From IMG/VR virus record IMGVR_UViG_3300010401_000061, positions 1-35,298 of that record: 35,298 nt of DNA, one strand, 5' to 3'. Below are positions 2,931 through 23,348 of the stretch, one piece after another. Position numbers and translations under genes: made by a program. Below the pieces are notes generated by a model. That model was not told the DNA's origin and did not search any database. It saw only the letters and a list, made by a program, of their open reading frames with translations. This DNA comes from a virus. Numbering within the stretch: the first letter of the stretch is position 1; each line of letters opens with the position of its first letter.

Positions 2931-3042
2931 TTTTCATTGCCTTTTCTAAAGCTTCGAGAAGAGCTTTTAATGAACGTAGCTCATAATCTGTTTGTGCTTC
3001 TAGTTTTTCTAATTCTTCAAAAGAGAGTTCTTGAATTTCCAT
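2920..3042 (-). CDS. First gene of the leftward early operon, 40-aa coiled-coil-like protein
   Basis: The frame from the ATG at 3040-3042 to the TAA at 2920-2922 encodes 40 residues, almost all Glu/Leu/Lys/Ala and surely helical. A perfect GGAGG lies 4 nt before the ATG, the best ribosome-binding site in the operon. It is the promoter-proximal gene, with a leader of about 17 nt from the predicted start point. The Shine-Dalgarno sequence lies in a 10-bp segment that is exactly complementary to the candidate small RNA at 3123-3210, so it may act as the control point for the operon. Confidence 0.6.
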   Translation of the reverse strand: MEIQELSFEELEKLEAQTDYELRSLKALLEALEKAMKNDD

Positions 3043-3122: not shown

Positions 3123-3210
3123 GAAATCGTGGGAGCATCAACAATTCTCCATAAGCACACGATGACGGCCGAGAGGTTGTGGAGTCTCCCTCCGCTCTTC
3201 TCGGTTTTTT
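3123..3210 (+). ncRNA. Candidate ~88-nt regulatory small RNA
   Basis: The segment lies between a plausible rightward promoter and a strong intrinsic terminator, and has no convincing reading frame. It folds into two hairpins: 3126-3131 with 3158-3163 (6 bp) capped by 3132-3135 with 3147-3150, and the terminator stem. Bases 3147-3156 (CTCCATAAGC) are perfectly complementary to the leftward early mRNA at 3048-3057, which includes its Shine-Dalgarno core; a G-U pair extends this to 11 bp. Half of the complementary tract (ATAAGC) lies in an unpaired side loop and could act as a seed. Inference: it represses translation of the early recombination operon. No expression evidence. Confidence 0.5.
3169..3210 (+). 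terminator. Strong intrinsic terminator, rightward
   Basis: The outer stem 3169-3176 / 3197-3204 (8 bp with one G-U) and inner stem 3179-3184 / 3090+100-3195, that is 3190-3195 (6 bp with one G-U), are followed at once by six T, one A and five T. On the opposite strand there is no U-tract, so it acts only rightward. It separates the small-RNA promoter from the promoter that drives the replication genes. Confidence 0.88.
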
Positions 3211-3232
3211 ATTTTTATCTTTGGAAAAAATT

Positions 3233-3304
3233 AAGCCCCTCAGCGAAATCGAATTGACAGGGAGAACGCCAAGGGGCTTTAGTCTTGAGCTAGGTATTCA
3301 AGAC
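3233..3304 (+). promoter_or_regulatory. Rightward replication promoter with overlapping operator-like inverted repeats
   Basis: A perfect -35 TTGACA (3254-3259) and TTTAGT (3278-3283) are spaced 18 nt, giving a start near 3290. A perfect 7-bp inverted repeat, GTCTTGA at 3282-3288 and TCAAGAC at 3298-3304, covers the end of the -10 box and the start point, the normal place for a repressor or autoregulator operator. A second 8-bp inverted repeat, AAGCCCCT (3233-3240) and AGGGGCTT (3272-3279), flanks the -35 box. The replication initiator starts at 3363 behind a GGAGG. Confidence 0.5.
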
Positions 3305-8486: not shown

Positions 8487-8617
8487 AGCCATTAGAAGCT
8501 ATCCAAATAATTGAAGATGTTTTAGCGCAGTTGAAACTTTCAAAACAAGAACATGCTAAGCTTGATGCATGTCTAGAGGTGATAAAATCGAACCTCAAAC
8601 AACCTCAAACTCAATAA
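8483..8617 (+). CDS. Small helical protein (44 aa) overlapping the terminase-small-like gene
   Basis: The frame ATG 8483 to TAA 8615-8617 encodes MKPLEAIQIIEDVLAQLKLS and a Gln/Lys-rich tail. It overlaps the upstream gene by ATGA and the downstream gene by 49 bp in another frame. Its composition looks coding and helical. The function is unknown. Confidence 0.45.
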   Translation: MKPLEAIQIIEDVLAQLKLSKQEHAKLDACLEVIKSNLKQPQTQ

Positions 8618-9096
8618 CTAAAAAGCGTGGTCCGCCTTTTAAATTAGATATTGATGAAAATCTCATAAATCAAATAGAGACTCTCGCAGGGCTGGGATTA
8701 ACGCTGGAAGACATATCCTTAGTGCTTAAAATTAATGAGAGTTCTTTCCATAGATACAAAGATAGGTTTCCTCAAATTGTGCAAGCTGTCGAAAATGGAA
8801 GAGCCAAAGCTAAAGAAACTTCTGGAAAAGCGCTCATTAGAAAAGTTCAAGAAGGCGATCTTCCTTCTATTAAATGGTTTGAACAAACTAGATTTGGTTA
8901 TTCCGAAAAGATTAAAACTGAAAACGAACATACTGTAAAACATGAATCACTTGAAAATTATTTGAAACGAATGAAAGATGTTGGAAATGAAACACAAGTA
9001 TTACCTAGTAACGATTCTATTAGCGATTCTTTTTTGCCTGACAATTCAAATATTGAAAAGTCCACCGATGATAAAACTGAACCATCAAAAACTTGA
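8569..9096 (+). CDS. Terminase-small-subunit-like HTH protein
   Basis: 175 residues. A helix-turn-helix is clear at LAGLGLTLEDISLVLKINES (about 39-58), followed by FHRYKDRFPQIVQAVENGRA and the family-like stretch VQEGDLPSIKWFEQTRFGYS. This is the usual layout of phage small terminases of the DNA-binding 'helix-turn-helix then helical oligomerisation' type. The C-terminal 50 residues are polar and disordered. It lies 2 kb before the large subunit, separated by the RNA-like segment and the HNH gene. It probably recognises the packaging site. Confidence 0.65.
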   Translation: MSRGDKIEPQTTSNSITKKRGPPFKLDIDENLINQIETLAGLGLTLEDISLVLKINESSFHRYKDRFPQIVQAVENGRAKAKETSGKALIRKVQEGDLPSIKWFEQTRFGYSEKIKTENEHTVKHESLENYLKRMKDVGNETQVLPSNDSISDSFLPDNSNIEKSTDDKTEPSKT

Positions 9097-9110: not shown

Positions 9111-9254
9111 ATGGAACAAGCGGATTATTCCAAAAATAATATGTTACGCTTTAAAGAGTGGATCGATGGATCAAATCCGCGCTCTGGACTAGCGTCATTC
9201 TTCTTATTTGTAGTTTGTATATGTGCTTTCAGTTGTGGAATAAAATCAAAATAA
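9111..9254 (+). CDS. Tiny membrane protein (47 aa), first of an overlapping pair
   Basis: The ATG at 9111 has GGAG 6 nt upstream. The product begins MEQADYSKNNMLRFKEWIDG and ends in one hydrophobic segment FFLFVVCICAFSCG and a short basic tail. A second frame (9158-9316) overlaps it by 97 bp and also encodes one membrane segment at the same place, so one of the two may be a shadow, or both may be used as in nested phage membrane-protein pairs. Confidence 0.45.
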   Translation: MEQADYSKNNMLRFKEWIDGSNPRSGLASFFLFVVCICAFSCGIKSK

Positions 9255-9316
9255 TTGAACGAGACATTGATCATATGATCGGCACAACAAGTTATTGTGA
9301 ATGTGACTTTAGTTAG
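9158..9316 (+). CDS. Tiny membrane protein (52 aa), second of an overlapping pair
   Basis: A GTG at 9158 opens a frame with one membrane segment (ALWTSVILLICSLYMCFQLW) and a charged tail with ERDIDHMIG that ends in YCECDFS. An ATG at 9221 would give a shorter form without most of the segment. The ribosome-binding site is poor (AAAGAG touches the GTG). Its TAG (9314-9316) lies at the end of the 10-bp direct repeat that bounds the structured element. Confidence 0.35.
   Translation: MDRWIKSALWTSVILLICSLYMCFQLWNKIKIIERDIDHMIGTTSYCECDFS
9306..9315 (+). repeat. Left copy of a 10-bp direct repeat bounding the RNA-like element
   Basis: ACTTTAGTTA occurs here and at 9748-9757. The 442-bp interval between the starts of the two copies contains the whole structured segment. 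The shorter core TTTAGTTA occurs a third time at 9729-9736. Confidence 0.6.
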
Positions 9317-9710
9317 GCGAGCATGGCAGGTTTCCCACAGTCTGCCGACCCGTGCCGCAATCGTCTCAGGTTTGGTGAGGCCAAGGGAAACTATCCCAAG
9401 AGCGTTACCCTGTACTTTGATTACGGAACCACTCCCAACTTTTTGCCTCAACAAAAAGATGCTCTTTAAAAGAATAGCAAATATGCAGGCGAGGCGCGAC
9501 TCTCGCAAGGTGGACGATCTGCGCACACCATTCACCCTTAGGTTCTGTGCTGTTCCCGCGTGTCTCCAGTGGTTTTTCTTATCGTTCTCACAAGAAGGAC
9601 CACAGCTTCCCACGCCGCTGCATATTTATTATTCATATAGGATAAGCAGCAGAAGTTAAAAGTCTTTTGACCGCAAAGACAAAAGGCCTAACAAATGTGC
9701 TGCCTATCCC
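9317..9710 (+). ncRNA. Probable large structured non-coding RNA (~400 nt)
   Basis: There is no credible coding frame here, yet it is GC-rich (59 G+C in 9316-9415 by hand count) in an AT-rich genome and full of helices: 9317-9330 with 9341-9358 (13 bp, two bulges); 9367-9370/9409-9412 enclosing 9372-9375/9381-9384 and 9385-9388/9394-9397; a long-range 9425-9430/9541-9546 enclosing 9439-9445/9452-9458 (perfect 7 bp), 9489-9493/9502-9506 and 9507-9512/9533-9539; 9558-9562/9611-9615 enclosing a 12-bp stem 9569-9580/9592-9603; and 9640-9651/9698-9709 enclosing 9662-9667/9675-9680. Loops 9376-9380 (TGAGG) and 9446-9450 (CCTCA) could kiss. Several helices use G-U pairs that would be A-C on the other strand, favouring plus-strand transcription. 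It resembles no tmRNA, RNase P, group I or group II core I can recognise. Confidence 0.6.
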
Positions 9711-9747
9711 ATTTATTTAAGTAACACATTTAGTTATTTCCTTCCAA

Positions 9748-9757
9748 ACTTTAGTTA
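9748..9757 (+). repeat. Right copy of the 10-bp direct repeat
   Basis: This is the second ACTTTAGTTA, ending at the base before the TTG start of the HNH gene. It may be a target-site duplication or recombination scar, or chance in AT-rich flanks. Confidence 0.55.
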
Positions 9758-10120
9758 TTGGGAACTGCTACTTGCATAGAATGTGGGAAACGCGCTCAAT
9801 GTTTTCATCATATCGTGCCTAAAGTATTAGGCGGCACAAGAACCGTACCGCTTTGTAACATCTGTCATTCAAAAGTCCATGGACTTAACCACCGATTAAA
9901 CCATTCTGATCTCATTAAGAAGGGCCTTCATAAAGCAAGAGACGCAGGAGTTCGAATTGGACGTCCAAGATCCTGCACCCCTGACACTGAAGCTCTTGTG
10001 AAACGATTATTCGACGATCACCAAAACGTTCTTAAGGTTTGTTACCTCACCGGCATTCCCGAATCTACGGTCAGAGATATTTTAAAAAGGATAAAGGATG
10101 AAGATACCTTCAAAGATTGA
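9758..10120 (+). CDS. HNH endonuclease with C-terminal resolvase-type HTH
   Basis: 120 residues. The zinc/HNH part is complete: Cys6-x2-Cys9, the catalytic HHIVPKVLGG (His17-His18), Cys33-x2-Cys36-His37 and a following VHG. The C-terminal half (ARDAGVRIGRPRS then IPESTVRDILKR) is the linker and helix-turn-helix seen in serine recombinases, here presumably for target recognition. It must begin at TTG 9758, because a stop lies two codons upstream and no later ATG would keep the zinc site. There is no clear ribosome-binding site. The free-standing homing-type gene directly downstream of the structured segment suggests the two moved together or depend on each other. It overlaps the next gene by 23 bp. 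Confidence 0.8.
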   Translation: MGTATCIECGKRAQCFHHIVPKVLGGTRTVPLCNICHSKVHGLNHRLNHSDLIKKGLHKARDAGVRIGRPRSCTPDTEALVKRLFDDHQNVLKVCYLTGIPESTVRDILKRIKDEDTFKD

Positions 10121-10457
10121 TATCAAAGGTTCGTCATACAGAATTTTCCTGATTAAAAAAGAAGAGATGCCTGACAATGCCGCAGGTCTTTGTAACACTC
10201 AAAAGAAAGCAATTGCCTTGTCCAACGATCTAAAAGGTAAACAACTAGAACAAATCTTTCTTCATGAATTAATCCATGCAGTCACTGAAGAGGTGGGGCT
10301 AACTCAAGCAAGTATCTCTGATGATGCTTTTGAAATTATCTCTGAGGCGATTTCTACTTTTATAATCGACAGATTTGATTTACGGTTAAAGGATTATAAA
10401 GGAGGGATTAAAATGGCTAAATCAGGAAAAAAAGGCGGCGGAAAAAAAGGTAAATAA
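10098..10457 (+). CDS. Small HExxH metallopeptidase-like protein
   Basis: 119 residues. The motif FLHELIHAVTEEVG (about 54-67) is a classic zinc-peptidase HExxH, in a context like small ImmA/SprT-type phage proteins, and the following EIISEAISTFIIDRF supplies an acidic third-ligand candidate (Glu). The N-terminus (KIDIKGSSYRIFLIKKEEMP) is a short beta sheet typical of that group. The last 14 residues (MAKSGKKGGGKKGK) form a basic tail that has its own ribosome-binding site and ATG. It may be an anti-host or virion-processing protease; the substrate is unknown. Confidence 0.7.
   Translation: MKIPSKIDIKGSSYRIFLIKKEEMPDNAAGLCNTQKKAIALSNDLKGKQLEQIFLHELIHAVTEEVGLTQASISDDAFEIISEAISTFIIDRFDLRLKDYKGGIKMAKSGKKGGGKKGK
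10413..10457 (+). CDS. Possible internal start: 14-aa Lys/Gly peptide
   Basis: A perfect GGAGG (10401-10405) lies 7 nt before an in-frame ATG at 10413 near the end of the metallopeptidase gene. Initiation there would make MAKSGKKGGGKKGK separately. The two following genes also encode short lysine-rich proteins, so a set of basic peptides is plausible. The Shine-Dalgarno may also be a chance product of the Lys-Gly-Gly codons. Confidence 0.35.
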   Translation: MAKSGKKGGGKKGK

Positions 10458-10816: not shown

Positions 10817-11064
10817 TGTCTGACAAGATGAAACCGTTCTTCTACGTATTCTTAGGATTATGCCTTACAATCTTTATTCTTATTGAAGGCACTCTAAATA
10901 GTTTTGAACACGGCGCATTTAAACAGCTTGTTAAATATGCTTTTAAACATCAGGATTTCAATGTGTGTTTTGAGATTGCAGGATATCCGAACTATAACGG
11001 TAAATATTGTATGTATTCTGTAACTGACACCAAACCAATCCCAACGGTTAAATGTGAAGAGTGA
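10816..11064 (+). CDS. Single-pass membrane protein (82 aa)
   Basis: A hydrophobic segment FFYVFLGLCLTIFILIEGTL occupies residues 8-27. The remaining part has three to four cysteines (VCFEIAGYPNYNGKYC, TVKCEE) and would lie in the periplasm if the N-terminus is inside, where disulfides could form. It overlaps the terminase start at GTGA. The role is unknown. Confidence 0.6.
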   Translation: MSDKMKPFFYVFLGLCLTIFILIEGTLNSFEHGAFKQLVKYAFKHQDFNVCFEIAGYPNYNGKYCMYSVTDTKPIPTVKCEE

Positions 11065-12677
11065 ACGATTTAATCTCTGATTATCAGAAGTATGCAAATT
11101 CGTTCCTTAGGATAACAACAAAGAATTCAAGTCTTATTCAGTTTAAGATGAATGGGTATCAGAGAAAACTTCTAGAGCTGATTCAATCAAAGCGCGAAGA
11201 AAAAAAGCCAATACGAATAATAATATTAAAAGCGCGACAAATGGGTATATCAACATTTTCAGCAGGCTACATCTTTCATAAGTCTGCTACTAACTTTTAT
11301 ACCAAATCGATGATTGTGGCCCATGATGCTGATTCTACAACGAACATCTTCAACATGGTCAAACGATATTATGATTTTCTTCCAGAAGAAATTAAACCAA
11401 TGAAGCGTTATTCTAACAGGAGAGAGTTAGTCTTTGAAAATCCTGACGAAAATGCACGAAGAGATGATTCCGGACTCCTTTCTTCTATTGAGGTTGAGAC
11501 AGCTAATAATATTAATGCCGGTAGATCTGGGACAATACATCATCTCCATATCTCGGAGCTCGCGTTCTGGTCTCATGCTCAACTACCGCTTAGTGGTTTA
11601 TTTCAGGCTGTTCCATCAAATCCCCAAACCTCCATCATCATTGAATCTACCGCCAACGGCATAACTGGTGATGGAAAAGTGTTCTACGATATGTGGCAAG
11701 CAGCATCCCAAGGATTAAATGACTTCACGCCATTCTTTATCCCTTGGTTTGAGAATGAAGATTATATCAAAAAAGATATTGTCTCCTTTGTTCCAACAGA
11801 GAAAGAGCGTGATCTTAAAAGACAGTTTGATTTATCGAATGAGCAGTTAGCGTGGCGAAGATATAAAATTAATAATGATTTAGGTGGCGATGAAACATTG
11901 TTTCGACAAGAGTTTCCAGCGTCTCCTGATGAAGCTTTTATCCTTTCAGGGCGCCCTGTCTTTGATTTAGCAAAGCTTCAAAAAGCTATCCATAATGCTT
12001 CAAATAGTTATGTGGAAAATGGATTTACTAGAATTTATTCGCCTCCCGAAGAAGGTCAAATATACTGTATAGGTGCAGACACTGCCGAAGGCTTGGAGAC
12101 AGGTGACTATAGCGCTGCGATGGTTCTTGATAAGAACTTTAATCAGTGTGCTCGTATTTACGGCCATCTTGATCCCGACAATTTTGGCAGGGCTCTTGTC
12201 GATATGGCATGCCTATATAACAAGGCTTTGGTTGCTCCAGAGATAAATTCCATGGGTTATGCTGTTCTTTCTAAGATCAAAGATTTAAATTATTCCAACA
12301 TTTATCAGCGCGAAGAATTAGATACTCATGAAGAAAAGTTTCAAAAGAAACTAGGTTGGAATACCAACATCAGAACAAAGCATTTAATGCTTTCTGAGTT
12401 TATTACAGCCTTCAACGATGAATCATTAAAGATAAATGACACTGAATTATTAAAAGAAATGATGACATTGTCTTATGAGCCTGACGGAAACGTTAATTTA
12501 AACGGAAAAGATTTAGTCGTAAGTGCATGTATTTCATTGCAAGCATTAAAACAAACTCCGAATTCAATTAATTACAAAGCGTTTAATCCTGAATTACATA
12601 AAGAAGAAAAACCACCTGAGACATTTCAACAAAGAATGAAACGATTAAATAAAGATGTTGACTCGTACTACGATTAA
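11061..12677 (+). CDS. Terminase large subunit
   Basis: 538 residues from a GTG start overlapping the previous stop. The ATPase has a Walker A variant LKARQMGIST (about 56-65), Walker B/catalytic glutamate HLHISELAFW (about 162-171) and motif III IIESTANG (about 193-200). The nuclease domain begins at YCIGADTAEGLETGDYSAAM (Asp in GAD about 339) with a second acidic cluster near APEINSMG. It pumps DNA into the prohead at the portal and cuts concatemers. Of the packaging genes it is the best preserved. The small-subunit-like gene is upstream at 8569, with the putative RNA and HNH between them. Confidence 0.92.
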   Translation: MNDLISDYQKYANSFLRITTKNSSLIQFKMNGYQRKLLELIQSKREEKKPIRIIILKARQMGISTFSAGYIFHKSATNFYTKSMIVAHDADSTTNIFNMVKRYYDFLPEEIKPMKRYSNRRELVFENPDENARRDDSGLLSSIEVETANNINAGRSGTIHHLHISELAFWSHAQLPLSGLFQAVPSNPQTSIIIESTANGITGDGKVFYDMWQAASQGLNDFTPFFIPWFENEDYIKKDIVSFVPTEKERDLKRQFDLSNEQLAWRRYKINNDLGGDETLFRQEFPASPDEAFILSGRPVFDLAKLQKAIHNASNSYVENGFTRIYSPPEEGQIYCIGADTAEGLETGDYSAAMVLDKNFNQCARIYGHLDPDNFGRALVDMACLYNKALVAPEINSMGYAVLSKIKDLNYSNIYQREELDTHEEKFQKKLGWNTNIRTKHLMLSEFITAFNDESLKINDTELLKEMMTLSYEPDGNVNLNGKDLVVSACISLQALKQTPNSINYKAFNPELHKEEKPPETFQQRMKRLNKDVDSYYD

Positions 12678-17553: not shown

Positions 17554-18021
17554 ATGAAGAAAATTGTATTGATTCTAGGAATGCTTGCTTCTGTTCCGTC
17601 GTTTGCTGTCATTCAACGGCTCGGAAGCTCACTTGACACTACAGATCCGGAGAAGGAGTTCATTAAGATTAAAAATACTGAAGCTTCTACTTCAATCGTT
17701 AGTGGAAACATGGTTTGTCTTGATACGTCAGCAGATGACGGTGTCAGCGCAAAACTATGTACGACAGGTGGCGCGCCTGCTCTTTGTGTCGGTATCGACA
17801 CAATCCTTGCTGGTGCTTACGGACGTTGTCAGATTTACGGATTTCATGCGGCAGTTCTTGTATCTGCAGCAGGAAATAACGTAACCGCTGGCGGACGTTT
17901 GGCTGTGTCGTCAGATGGAACAGCGTCAAAAGCAGATGGTAAGTCGACAGGCGATCTCGTTGGGATTGCCCTTGATTCAGCGTCTACTTCGACGACAGTT
18001 AAAGCGTTCATTAAACTTTGA
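17554..18021 (+). CDS. Capsid-decoration-like protein with a Sec signal peptide
   Basis: The ATG at 17554 follows AAGGAG; the ATG of MIGIEG lies 30 bases upstream, inside the end of the coat gene. The first 18 residues (MKKIVLILGMLASVPSFA) form a textbook Sec signal with an AxA-like c-region. The mature 137 residues match the pattern of small phage head-decoration proteins (DUF2190-like): SIVSGNMVCLDTSADDGVSA, GAYGRCQIYGFHAAVLV, VTAGGRLAVSSDGT, DLVGIALDSASTSTTVKAFI. Four cysteines are present. It directly follows the coat gene, the usual decoration-gene position. A capsid protein with an export signal is unusual: the protein might be used outside the cytoplasm, or the signal might be a hydrophobic arm. 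Confidence 0.7.
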   Translation: MKKIVLILGMLASVPSFAVIQRLGSSLDTTDPEKEFIKIKNTEASTSIVSGNMVCLDTSADDGVSAKLCTTGGAPALCVGIDTILAGAYGRCQIYGFHAAVLVSAAGNNVTAGGRLAVSSDGTASKADGKSTGDLVGIALDSASTSTTVKAFIKL

Positions 18022-18024
18022 TGA

Positions 18025-19122
18025 ATGACTGATTGGTTTTCAATCTACTGGGGAGTGGCAGCGATGCTGCTCCCCTTTTATGTCAGATTTAATGAACATA
18101 ATGACGTTAGGATTTGTAAAAACCTTTTTTTCTTCTTTTTAGTCTGTGTTTCTTTAATTGTTTTTGGTCTGGGAAAAAGAAAAGTATCATTAGGGTTAAA
18201 AACATCACTAGTTTTTTTAGCGATATTATCATTCTTTAATCATAAGAATCTTTATCTGAGTGCTGCAATAGAGCAAACGATAATTTTTAATATCTCCCTG
18301 GTGATTTTATATCAATTATTGACATTTAATCTAGATTTTGTCGTCATTGCGTTCTTCTTAAGAATTTCAGCACTCATTCAAGCTGTAATTTTCATTTTAA
18401 ACTACTATGGCGTAAATCCTTACAACTTATCTTTGCCGGCGCCCATCCCTTATGGAAGTTTTGGCCAGCAAACGCTAAGTGGAGCTCATATAGCAGTGTT
18501 ATTTCCACTGTTTCTACAGACATGGTGGTGGATGTTCATTCCCGTCCTTATTGTTGCGGTTTTTCTAGCAAAAAGCGCAATGGCTTGGGCGTCACTAGTC
18601 GCTGGAGTTGTTGTTTTTGGTTGTTACAAGCACATAAAACGCCCACTTTTCGTGTCTGGATGTTTTTGTTCAGCTTTAATTGCGTTCTTTTTAACAAAAA
18701 GTATCCCGTTCTTTTCTGATAACATGAGATATGTCACATGGAAAAAGCTCATGATTGAATTCTTTAATTGGAGATGGATTGAAGAGCTATTTGGTCGAGG
18801 CTTAGGCTGGCTTTTTCATAATTCTCGTCTTGAAGACGGTATTGGCGGAATATTTACCTATGCGCATAATGAAGCAATTGATTCTTTGTGGGCGTTTGGG
18901 ATTATTGGAACTTCTGTGATTGTTTATGTGCTTCTTAAAGCGCTTAAAAATATAAACGAAGGCTCACGAGTTTCATTGGCAATACTTGCAGCATTCATCT
19001 CTAATTCTTTTGGTAATTTTACATTTCATATTTCTGCTATTGCATTACCTGCAATGCTTGCTTACGCTTATTTGGTAACCAATAACGAGGAGAAAATAAA
19101 TTATGGCTACAACGGCTACTAA
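18025..19122 (+). CDS. O-antigen ligase/polymerase-like multi-pass membrane protein
   Basis: 365 residues with about ten hydrophobic segments. Near the end a periplasmic-loop region has GRGLGWLFHNSRLEDGIGGI then YAHNEAIDSLWAFGIIG: the His-Asn near residue 281 followed by (D/S)xxxxxGIIG matches the conserved motif of the WaaL/Wzy O-antigen ligase-polymerase family. Family members join or polymerise lipid-linked O-chains at the periplasmic face. It lies between decoration and tail genes, overlaps the next gene by 20 bp, and is transcribed as part of the late block. With the glycosyltransferase at 30011 it could alter the lipopolysaccharide to block superinfection or change host range. The precise reaction is not shown. 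Confidence 0.65.
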   Translation: MTDWFSIYWGVAAMLLPFYVRFNEHNDVRICKNLFFFFLVCVSLIVFGLGKRKVSLGLKTSLVFLAILSFFNHKNLYLSAAIEQTIIFNISLVILYQLLTFNLDFVVIAFFLRISALIQAVIFILNYYGVNPYNLSLPAPIPYGSFGQQTLSGAHIAVLFPLFLQTWWWMFIPVLIVAVFLAKSAMAWASLVAGVVVFGCYKHIKRPLFVSGCFCSALIAFFLTKSIPFFSDNMRYVTWKKLMIEFFNWRWIEELFGRGLGWLFHNSRLEDGIGGIFTYAHNEAIDSLWAFGIIGTSVIVYVLLKALKNINEGSRVSLAILAAFISNSFGNFTFHISAIALPAMLAYAYLVTNNEEKINYGYNGY

Positions 19123-20365: not shown

Positions 20366-22308
20366 TGCCGCAAAGAGCACTACTTGTTAAAAAGCTCCCG
20401 TTCTTTAGAGCTGGTATTTCTTATCGCTCTGGAGAAATAGGCGAGAAACTTGTTGATGCTAGTAATGTTCTTTTAATAAACGGAAAATACACAACAAGAT
20501 ATGGATTAAAAGTATTCAATTCTGTATCGTTTTCTACAAATCCTTTATCGCTTAGTTTTTATCTTAAGTACGATGGTTCTACTCGAAAGATTATTGCAAA
20601 GGTTGATACAACACTTCAGGCAGCTGGCGAAGATGGTGTTTTTTCAACGATTAAATCGGGATTATCCTCATCAACTGTTCATAATGCAGTGACAATGGCA
20701 GGCCGACATATCATCGCATGTGGCAGCGATGGTTTGTTTAGTTATAACGGGACAACATTTGCTGACCTTGGTGTAACACCTCCATCAGCCCCTACAACAG
20801 CTGTTTTAGCTGGCGGTTCTTTGTCTGACAAAACATATACGGTGGCTTTAACTTATGTTTCTTCGTCAACTGGATTTGAATCAAACATTGGGTCTGCAAG
20901 TAATGCAACAGCTACAAACTCAGGTGGCGGAAATTCTGCTTTAACAGTTGCTAGTATTCCAACGTCATCAAACGCTCTTGTTGATAAAATTAATGTGTAT
21001 CTAAAAAATACGTCCGATGCTGGAAATAACTTATTAGTAAAACAAATTGATAATGGCACGAGCACAACTACTATAACTGCAAATCCGTCTGCTAATGCGG
21101 CCGTCCCGCCAACTGGAAAAGACGCCCCCGTTGCCGGTGGCGCTAAATATCTTGCAATTTATAACGGTCAAATTGTATCTGCTGGGAACTCGTCATTTCA
21201 GAGTGATGTATTTTTCAGTAATGCTGATGAACCTGACGGCTGGTCAACAACAAATACATTGGTTCACGCTAAAGGTGACGGTCCTATCACCGGTTTAGCT
21301 GTGGGTAATTTTGATGCCCACGAAGTGACCCAATACTTAGTAATATTTAAGCGTCATAGTATTACACTTTATTTTCAGGATATCACTGGAGCTTCTAATG
21401 ATTCTGAAACATTTATTCCTGGAACTGGATGTGTATCGCACAAGTCGATTAGAATTAAAGACGGGAATATTTACTTTTTATCTGATTTTGGTTGGCGCGT
21501 AATTTCTCAAGGAAGACTTGTTAAAGATAACCTTGGTAAGGGCGATGTGGATGATATTTTTAATATTAACGGCTGGGTGTATGGTTTAAATAAGACCAAC
21601 ATTTCAAATGCGTTTTCTGTTTATTATTCTGAATTAGATTCATATATGTCATGGGTTGCAGAGGGCGCTAGCACCAACTTTGATAAGTGCTACAACTATG
21701 GAATTTCAAGTGGCCAGTTCATGCCTCTTTCTTTTGGAAGCTGCACTTGTGCTTGTACTGGTGAAGACACTAATGGAAATGAAGTTGTTTACATCGGAAA
21801 AGCTGATCAGAATATCTATTCCTATTCCATCAGAAATCCATTTTATGACGAAACCTCAACTGGATTTATACTAGATGTAAATCGACTTGATGTAGATAAG
21901 CTTCAAACGGCAGGAACTATTGCTATTCCAATTAACCTTGTTTTTAACTGGTTTCCAAATGAAAACTATGACGCAACATTCAATTTCAGGAATTTATTCT
22001 TAGAGGCAATCTCAGACACTTCAACGTCTCTTTCAACTATTAATTTGCAGGCCTTTGTTAACTTCTCACGCAGTACGCCATATGCTTATAGTTATAACTT
22101 TCAAGCTTCTGAAGGATTTCAACTAGATGTGTCAATGCTTGATGTGGGCGTTTTGGGTGATGATAGGTCCCGCTCACGAATCGTGAGTGATATCAATTTA
22201 ACTGGACGAAATATTCTTATCCAAATTCAACAAAGTGTCTTAGGGGCTCATTTCCAATTGCTCTCTTCTCAACTAAACTATAGTAGAAATGGGAATTTCA
22301 ATATATGA
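20365..22308 (+). CDS. Tail nozzle/stabilisation-type protein (647 aa)
   Basis: The N-terminus (FRAGISYRSGEIGEKLVDAS followed by NVLLINGKYTTRYGLKVF) is the beginning of podovirus nozzle or 'stabilisation' proteins. About residues 137-250 form an Ig/FN3-like insert (TYTVALTYVSSSTGFESNIG) very like that in the adaptor. The rest is beta-rich with blade-like segments (YLAIYNGQIVSAGNSSFQSD, GNIYFLSDFGWRVISQGRLV), and the C-terminal part has two GFxLDV-type copies. It closes the tail tube below the adaptor, where fibres attach. Confidence 0.75.
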   Translation: MPQRALLVKKLPFFRAGISYRSGEIGEKLVDASNVLLINGKYTTRYGLKVFNSVSFSTNPLSLSFYLKYDGSTRKIIAKVDTTLQAAGEDGVFSTIKSGLSSSTVHNAVTMAGRHIIACGSDGLFSYNGTTFADLGVTPPSAPTTAVLAGGSLSDKTYTVALTYVSSSTGFESNIGSASNATATNSGGGNSALTVASIPTSSNALVDKINVYLKNTSDAGNNLLVKQIDNGTSTTTITANPSANAAVPPTGKDAPVAGGAKYLAIYNGQIVSAGNSSFQSDVFFSNADEPDGWSTTNTLVHAKGDGPITGLAVGNFDAHEVTQYLVIFKRHSITLYFQDITGASNDSETFIPGTGCVSHKSIRIKDGNIYFLSDFGWRVISQGRLVKDNLGKGDVDDIFNINGWVYGLNKTNISNAFSVYYSELDSYMSWVAEGASTNFDKCYNYGISSGQFMPLSFGSCTCACTGEDTNGNEVVYIGKADQNIYSYSIRNPFYDETSTGFILDVNRLDVDKLQTAGTIAIPINLVFNWFPNENYDATFNFRNLFLEAISDTSTSLSTINLQAFVNFSRSTPYAYSYNFQASEGFQLDVSMLDVGVLGDDRSRSRIVSDINLTGRNILIQIQQSVLGAHFQLLSSQLNYSRNGNFNI

Positions 22309-22316
22309 GGACAAAA

Positions 22317-23348
22317 ATGAAATTTATTAAACTAATGATCATCCTTTCAGCTTTTGTGTTTGTGAATCGTGCAAATGCAGGAACCTGTACTTCTATTACA
22401 AGATCAAATGCTGCAGCAAACTCAATTCTAACTTCGACTCAATACAACAATGATTTAAATACTGTTTACAACTTTACAAATGCCTATGATGGCGGATGCA
22501 TTTCTTCAGGAACGGTTGAGTCTGATTCGTTGAATACAACTCAATTTGCAGTTGTGCTAAATGGAATTAAAGAAGGCTGTACATTAACAAATACGGATTC
22601 AAATACAATTTCTGTTGATCGGTGCATGATTTCGGTGAATGGAAACTTTGTAAGAACAGTTGTTGCTACAACCGTGACCTGGGGATGTACATCGTGTTCT
22701 TCTGAAGCATCCTCTACTGAGTATTATGTTTATGCAAAAGCTGCCTCAACAGGCGCAACGCTTTCTCTTCTTATTTCAACGACAGCCCCAAACGGTGATG
22801 GTTACGATGCGAGTTCAAACAAAGCTCTCGGTAGATTTTTTAACGATGGATCATCAAATATCATGGCCGTTGAAAACTGGGTAAGCGGTCGTTTTGGAAC
22901 ACCACGAAGTTTAGTTAGAGTTCATACTGCAGACACGTATCCAGGAACCGTTGAAACAAAAATTCCGCGCTTTACGACAATTGTAAAAAACGTTGGTCCT
23001 GATATTACATATAGTGCCGGGAGCTCAAGCCAAGGAGCTCGTTTTACCGTTAATAGTGACGGCATCTATGCAATTACTTTTTGTTGGAGTTCAGCAACAA
23101 GTGCGGGGCTCACAATGGCAATTACATTAAATGACACAGACTTAACTTCAGCCGTTTCCAGCGTAACTGCTGCAAATAGATTAGCCTATAGCTTTTCTCC
23201 TGCTGTTTCTGGAGATGGAAGTGCGCCGTGTCCAAGCTGGACAGGACCTCTTTCTTCAGGAGACATCATCCGACCACACACTGGAGGCGAAGTTCCAGGA
23301 ACTGCGGCCAATGGAACAGTGTTTTCAATAGCGAAAGTGAGCCCGTGA
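22317..23348 (+). CDS. Tail-fibre/spike-like protein with a Sec signal peptide
   Basis: The ATG at 22317 has GAGG 6 nt upstream; the earlier ATG at 22305 is less well placed. Residues 1-22 (MKFIKLMIILSAFVFVNRAN followed by AG) form a signal peptide. The following SITRSNAAANSILTSTQYNN and DLNTVYNFTNAYDGGCISSG are the same pattern as the N-termini of many tail-attached phage fibres, which normally lack signals. Eight or so cysteines occur, in pairs (CTSCSS, and FCW/PC near the end), fitting oxidation. It lies after the nozzle gene. If exported, it would act outside the cytoplasm; see findings. Confidence 0.65.
   Translation: MKFIKLMIILSAFVFVNRANAGTCTSITRSNAAANSILTSTQYNNDLNTVYNFTNAYDGGCISSGTVESDSLNTTQFAVVLNGIKEGCTLTNTDSNTISVDRCMISVNGNFVRTVVATTVTWGCTSCSSEASSTEYYVYAKAASTGATLSLLISTTAPNGDGYDASSNKALGRFFNDGSSNIMAVENWVSGRFGTPRSLVRVHTADTYPGTVETKIPRFTTIVKNVGPDITYSAGSSSQGARFTVNSDGIYAITFCWSSATSAGLTMAITLNDTDLTSAVSSVTAANRLAYSFSPAVSGDGSAPCPSWTGPLSSGDIIRPHTGGEVPGTAANGTVFSIAKVSP

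Follow-up and report, generated by a model that had tools for sequence, protein, structure and literature searches.

What occupies positions 9317-9710 of IMG/VR record IMGVR_UViG_3300010401_000061, a phage sequence of 35,298 bases that is analysed here over its full length (the window)? An earlier note on this DNA had described the interval as a large structured RNA, without a plausible protein, between the genes for the two terminase subunits. The interval and the features around it are as follows.

8569-9096, + strand: TerS (terminase small subunit; phrog_309, 4e-13)
9111-9254, + strand: small ORF (47 aa, partly hydrophobic), in the gap between TerS and the RNA (ORF call, without family match)
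9317-9710, + strand: candidate structured RNA of three domains (fold z -4.4, well-defined ensemble, no protein)
9758-10120, + strand: ORF with an HNH-type N terminus and an invertase-like HTH, TTG start (phrog_125, 1.8e-4; HTH_29, weak)
10098-10457, + strand: SprT-like metallopeptidase (phrog_1233, 5.3e-17)
11061-12677, + strand: TerL (terminase large subunit; phrog_2, 3.1e-29)

The candidate RNA shares its strand with the surrounding genes and lies 48 nt from the start of the HNH-HTH ORF, with TerL 1.35 kb downstream; its location between the terminase genes holds only loosely, since the HNH-HTH ORF, the metallopeptidase and small ORFs separate it from TerL. PHROG and Pfam scans of the phage also recognise a portal resembling that of SU10, as well as a major capsid protein, whose nearest named relatives are those of Myxococcus phages Mx9 and Mx8 (32-33% identity). 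Elsewhere in the virion region, two proteins open by eye with Gram-negative-like signal peptides, MKKIVLILGMLASVPSFA and MKFIKLMIILSAFVFVNRANA (17554-18018, no family; 22305-23345, weak Mtd_2nd match), and a 365-aa hydrophobic polytopic protein encoded within the structural gene block (18025-19122) looks like an O-antigen polymerase or ligase by eye, with no Pfam match.

Two frames are open across the interval, one of 120 codons on the + strand (9297-9656) and one of 162 codons on the - strand (9128-9613). Neither yields a match worth the name in Pfam, PHROG or NCBIfam, nor a credible relative by tblastn against 50,697 phage records; the interval thus contains no recognisable protein, as had been claimed. 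Its GC content (49%) is likewise above that of its flanks (about 30-44%), with a step at the edges.

The + strand folds with an MFE of -127.9 kcal/mol, whereas dinucleotide shuffles give -103.2 +/- 5.6 and none of the 100 does as well (z -4.4), and its ensemble has a mean pair distance of 54, against 100 +/- 19 in shuffles (0 of 25 as low). Given these calculations, we accept that the predicted fold is stable and well defined. When all same-length (394-nt) + strand frames of the phage were ranked by z, using 24 shuffles per frame, the one at 9317 (z -3.8 in this comparison) came third out of 88, so that energy alone is not decisive. Two of the 87 other frames reach z -4.3 to -4.4, one in a coding region at 17591 and the other at 3013, where the signal is explained by two ordinary back-to-back intrinsic terminators at 3160-3290 (CCGAGA..TCTCGG plus a T run on the + strand and AAGCCCC..GGGGCTT plus a T run on the - strand, with divergent flanking genes). 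Perfect complementary 7-mers within 9317-9710 number 7 where 4.9 are expected, a chance level that removes the perfect 7-bp stems from the support once listed for the structure. Taken together with the rank of the frame and the two long open frames, this count would fit a non-functional interval, be it a diverged or decayed coding sequence or a neutral GC-rich spacer that folds well by chance; we nevertheless hold such an origin to be rather improbable, given that neither long frame has a relative, no shuffle matches the fold and ensemble diversity falls far under that of the shuffles.

The predicted structure divides into three domains, whose individual z values are somewhat flattered because the domain boundaries came from the fold itself.

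9319-9464, + strand: domain 1, with a GAGCAT/ATGCTC closing stem, a GGCAG hairpin and a CTTTTTG/CAAAAAG hairpin (z -2.3 for 9317-9466; the weakest domain)
9471-9636, + strand: domain 2, with a long closing stem GAATAG-AAATATGCAG/CTGCATATTT-TTATTC and a 12-bp stem, 9569-9580/9592-9603 (z -4.6 for 9466-9640)
9637-9712, + strand: domain 3, an extended, irregular hairpin GGATAAGCAGCA..TGCTGCCTATCC and then an AT-rich tract (z -4.9 for 9637-9712)

Domains 2 and 3 are the most convincing of the predicted three, and pair probabilities of about 0.8-1.0, mostly above 0.93, are calculated for the helices 9479-9488/9618-9627, 9569-9580/9592-9603, 9640-9658/9689-9709 and 9662-9669/9680-9687. The kissing loop that the earlier note proposed between TGAGG and CCTCA fared less well: the pair is absent from the MFE structure, in which GTGA at 9375-9378 instead pairs with 9405-9408 (P 0.94), opening both loops would cost 5.9 kcal/mol, and a 5-nt loop-loop match is present in 12% of shuffles; this specific tertiary contact is therefore not accepted.

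The - strand of the interval also folds well (z -3.15), and both strands show roughly half the ensemble diversity of their shuffles. G-U pairs, once taken to indicate transcription of the + strand, account for 12 of 126 pairs on + and 14 of 128 on -, and do not settle the strand. We lean towards +, because its predicted excess stability over shuffles is larger (-24.8 against -16.9 kcal/mol) and two G-U pairs fall in the 12-bp stem. What stands of the original observation is thus a non-coding, GC-rich interval with an unusually strong fold, several of the details adduced in its support having failed.

A pair of direct repeats flanks the structure.

9306-9315, + strand: ACTTTAGTTA, first copy, just 5' of the RNA (exact, 10 bp)
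9748-9757, + strand: ACTTTAGTTA, second copy, just before the start of the HNH ORF (exact, 10 bp)

A shared 10-mer between shuffled flanks is expected with a probability of 0.003, and the two copies would suit an insertion or, alternatively, two sites for protein binding. No terminal inverted repeats were found at the edges of the repeats, and there is no second copy of the element within the phage. A further repeat, TTTAGTTATT, occurs at 9729-9738 and 9750-9759, just before the HNH start; its copies are 21 bp apart, or two helical turns, and could be operator-like.

The terminase regions of related phages bear on both ways of reading the direct repeats. In eight loci whose TerL is 36-41% identical in tblastn matches (L007, L009-L012, L014, L016 and L017), the ORF before TerL is always a terminase small subunit by PHROG, most often overlapping TerL or sitting within about 50 bases of it, and the element is absent from all eight. 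The RNA and HNH block would thus be, as far as can be seen from these loci, specific to the lineage of the present phage, and a conserved role in packaging, such as had been suggested for the element, is unlikely. The order of genes also varies: the phrog_1233 peptidase follows TerS here but precedes it in L007 and L010. Moreover, the TerS of the present phage belongs to phrog_309 and those of the phages with the nearest TerL (L007, L009-L012) to phrog_2538, on which grounds its TerS and TerL seem to differ in their history.

Absence from these relatives, together with the exact repeats and the step in GC at the edges, would suit a small inserted element of about 442 bp with a 10-bp target duplication, or its remnant, whose folding simply reflects foreign GC-rich sequence; against this speak the missing terminal inverted repeats and the lack of a second copy in the phage or any copy in the collections searched, and we consider such an element doubtful. 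A site acting at the DNA level in packaging, replication or recombination, with the hairpins and ACTTTAGTTA repeats bound by, for example, TerS or the HNH protein, would explain why both strands fold well between flanking repeats and next to the genes for both proteins. The excess of stability on the + strand argues the other way, as does the fact that relatives with a similar TerL have nothing of the kind between TerS and TerL, and this possibility, too, is a slim one.

Searches for the element itself were made at several levels. Against phage, plasmid and E. coli sequences blastn gave no relative, and exact 18-20-mers gave none in IMG/VR. A gapped motif of the loop pair gave 95 chance-level matches in IMG/VR, 80 of which were checked with R1, one of two single-sequence covariance models of the element (R1 and R2), with none significant (best E 0.29). 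More than 200 loci reached through TerL and the major capsid protein by profile scans of IMG/VR and genomes contained no relative by blastn, nhmmer, R1 or R2, and about 1,400 genomes of four phyla, to which TerL relatives had led, yielded no credible one when searched with the DNA. Two AT-rich matches were judged to be due to chance: one of 44 nt in G1184 (E 2e-5), from the search of about 1,400 genomes, and another of the same kind in G010 (E 0.001). On these searches, whose collections may lack its closest kin, the element is an orphan prediction in a phage without close sequenced relatives.

Orphan status could mean that the element founds a new family of stand-alone, processed non-coding phage RNAs, acting as a trans-acting regulator, a decoy or a particle component. 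A length near 0.4 kb, the division into three compact domains, a defined ensemble and the lack of a known family are in keeping with this; yet no promoter-like site near the candidate RNA rises above expectation and no clear terminator of its own was found, in addition to which it has neither relatives nor the tRNA neighbours of ROOL and GOLLD (the 35,298-base window contains no tRNA gene). An independent RNA of this sort is, in our estimation, unlikely.

The reading that we prefer, tentatively and at less than even confidence, is that of a structured, untranslated + strand RNA within the transcript of the packaging region, acquired in this lineage with or next to the HNH-HTH gene and acting in cis as a leader; transcription, + strand origin and cis action are all inferred. 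The ORF that it precedes has a poor start, TTG 9758, without a Shine-Dalgarno sequence, and TAG 9752 blocks any in-frame reading from farther upstream. A folded leader that ends 48 nt before this start, itself within an AT-rich tract, is what suggests that the HNH gene may be controlled or insulated in cis. The RNA would have entered the space separating TerS from TerL in this phage lineage, either with the HNH-HTH gene or beside it; 9317-9710 would be transcribed from the + strand within the packaging-region transcript and left untranslated; the folded intergenic leader would insulate or control the downstream ORF; and domain 3, a 70-nt hairpin followed by AT-rich sequence, may provide a natural processing or stop point. 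This leader is supported by the lack of a protein family, the z of -4.4, the defined ensemble, the + strand excess of stability, the strand shared with neighbouring genes, the poor start of the HNH ORF that follows, the lack of an Rfam match and the absence from the eight relatives, whereas the lack of a homologue and of a promoter-like site, the two other frames with similar z and a minus strand that folds nearly as well count against it.

Finally, how does the element compare to described RNAs? Rfam 15 returned nothing at gathering thresholds or at E<=5 over 701 bases, and only chance-level matches over 406 bases at E 10. The models for HEARO, for group I introns and for ROOL were silent as well when run singly, and the element, which the earlier note could not assign to a known class, still matches none. 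A structured non-coding element of no described class is, accordingly, what survived every test run. That it is the first known representative of a new, multi-domain class of phage RNA of about 400 nt, tied to a packaging-region HNH-HTH gene and unrelated to Rfam families, is a fairly long shot; if real, such a class would lengthen the short list of large phage RNAs and provide a small system in which to study their function next to genes for packaging.

Like a group I intron with an HNH homing endonuclease, the candidate RNA is a folded RNA adjoining a phage HNH-HTH gene. The group I model (RF00028) has no match at E 10, however, and no interrupted gene was found at the element edges; in a group I/II splice reading by eye, a stop lies directly before TTG 9758 in the two forms read, unspliced and repeat-joined alike. 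Like HEARO or omega RNA with IscB, the candidate immediately precedes an ORF with an HNH part that is read in the same direction, but the HEARO model (RF02033) is empty even at E 10, although it detects 26 of 299 Bacillota genomes as a positive control, and real HEARO loci fetched from genomes have no similarity to the candidate. The 120-aa HNH ORF scores 13 bits against NCBIfam guided_IscB, far under the cut-off of 175, its weak HlpB and IscB HNH matches also being below cut-off, and no IscB-type RuvC-HNH protein follows downstream.

ROOL (RF03087) and GOLLD (RF02032), with which the earlier note had compared the element, are larger, often near tRNA islands, and have covariation-backed kissing loops, GOLLD often exceeding 800 nt (PMC12286853). 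Their size and setting (about 550-900 nt, with tRNA genes often adjacent; the ROOL covariance model has 574 positions) differ from those of the candidate, which measures about 394 nt, lacks tRNA neighbours and has a weak kissing pair. The ROOL model has no match in the window, whether run with all of Rfam or alone, the 14 genomes of the single-model run having included no positive control; the GOLLD model has none either in the Rfam runs. What is thus retained of the earlier interpretation is that the element is structured, non-coding and outside the known classes, and the kinship with ROOL and GOLLD, for which no support was found, is given up together with the general packaging role and the kissing loop. 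What the candidate RNA does have in common with ROOL and GOLLD is that it is non-coding, structured, phage-encoded and built of several domains.
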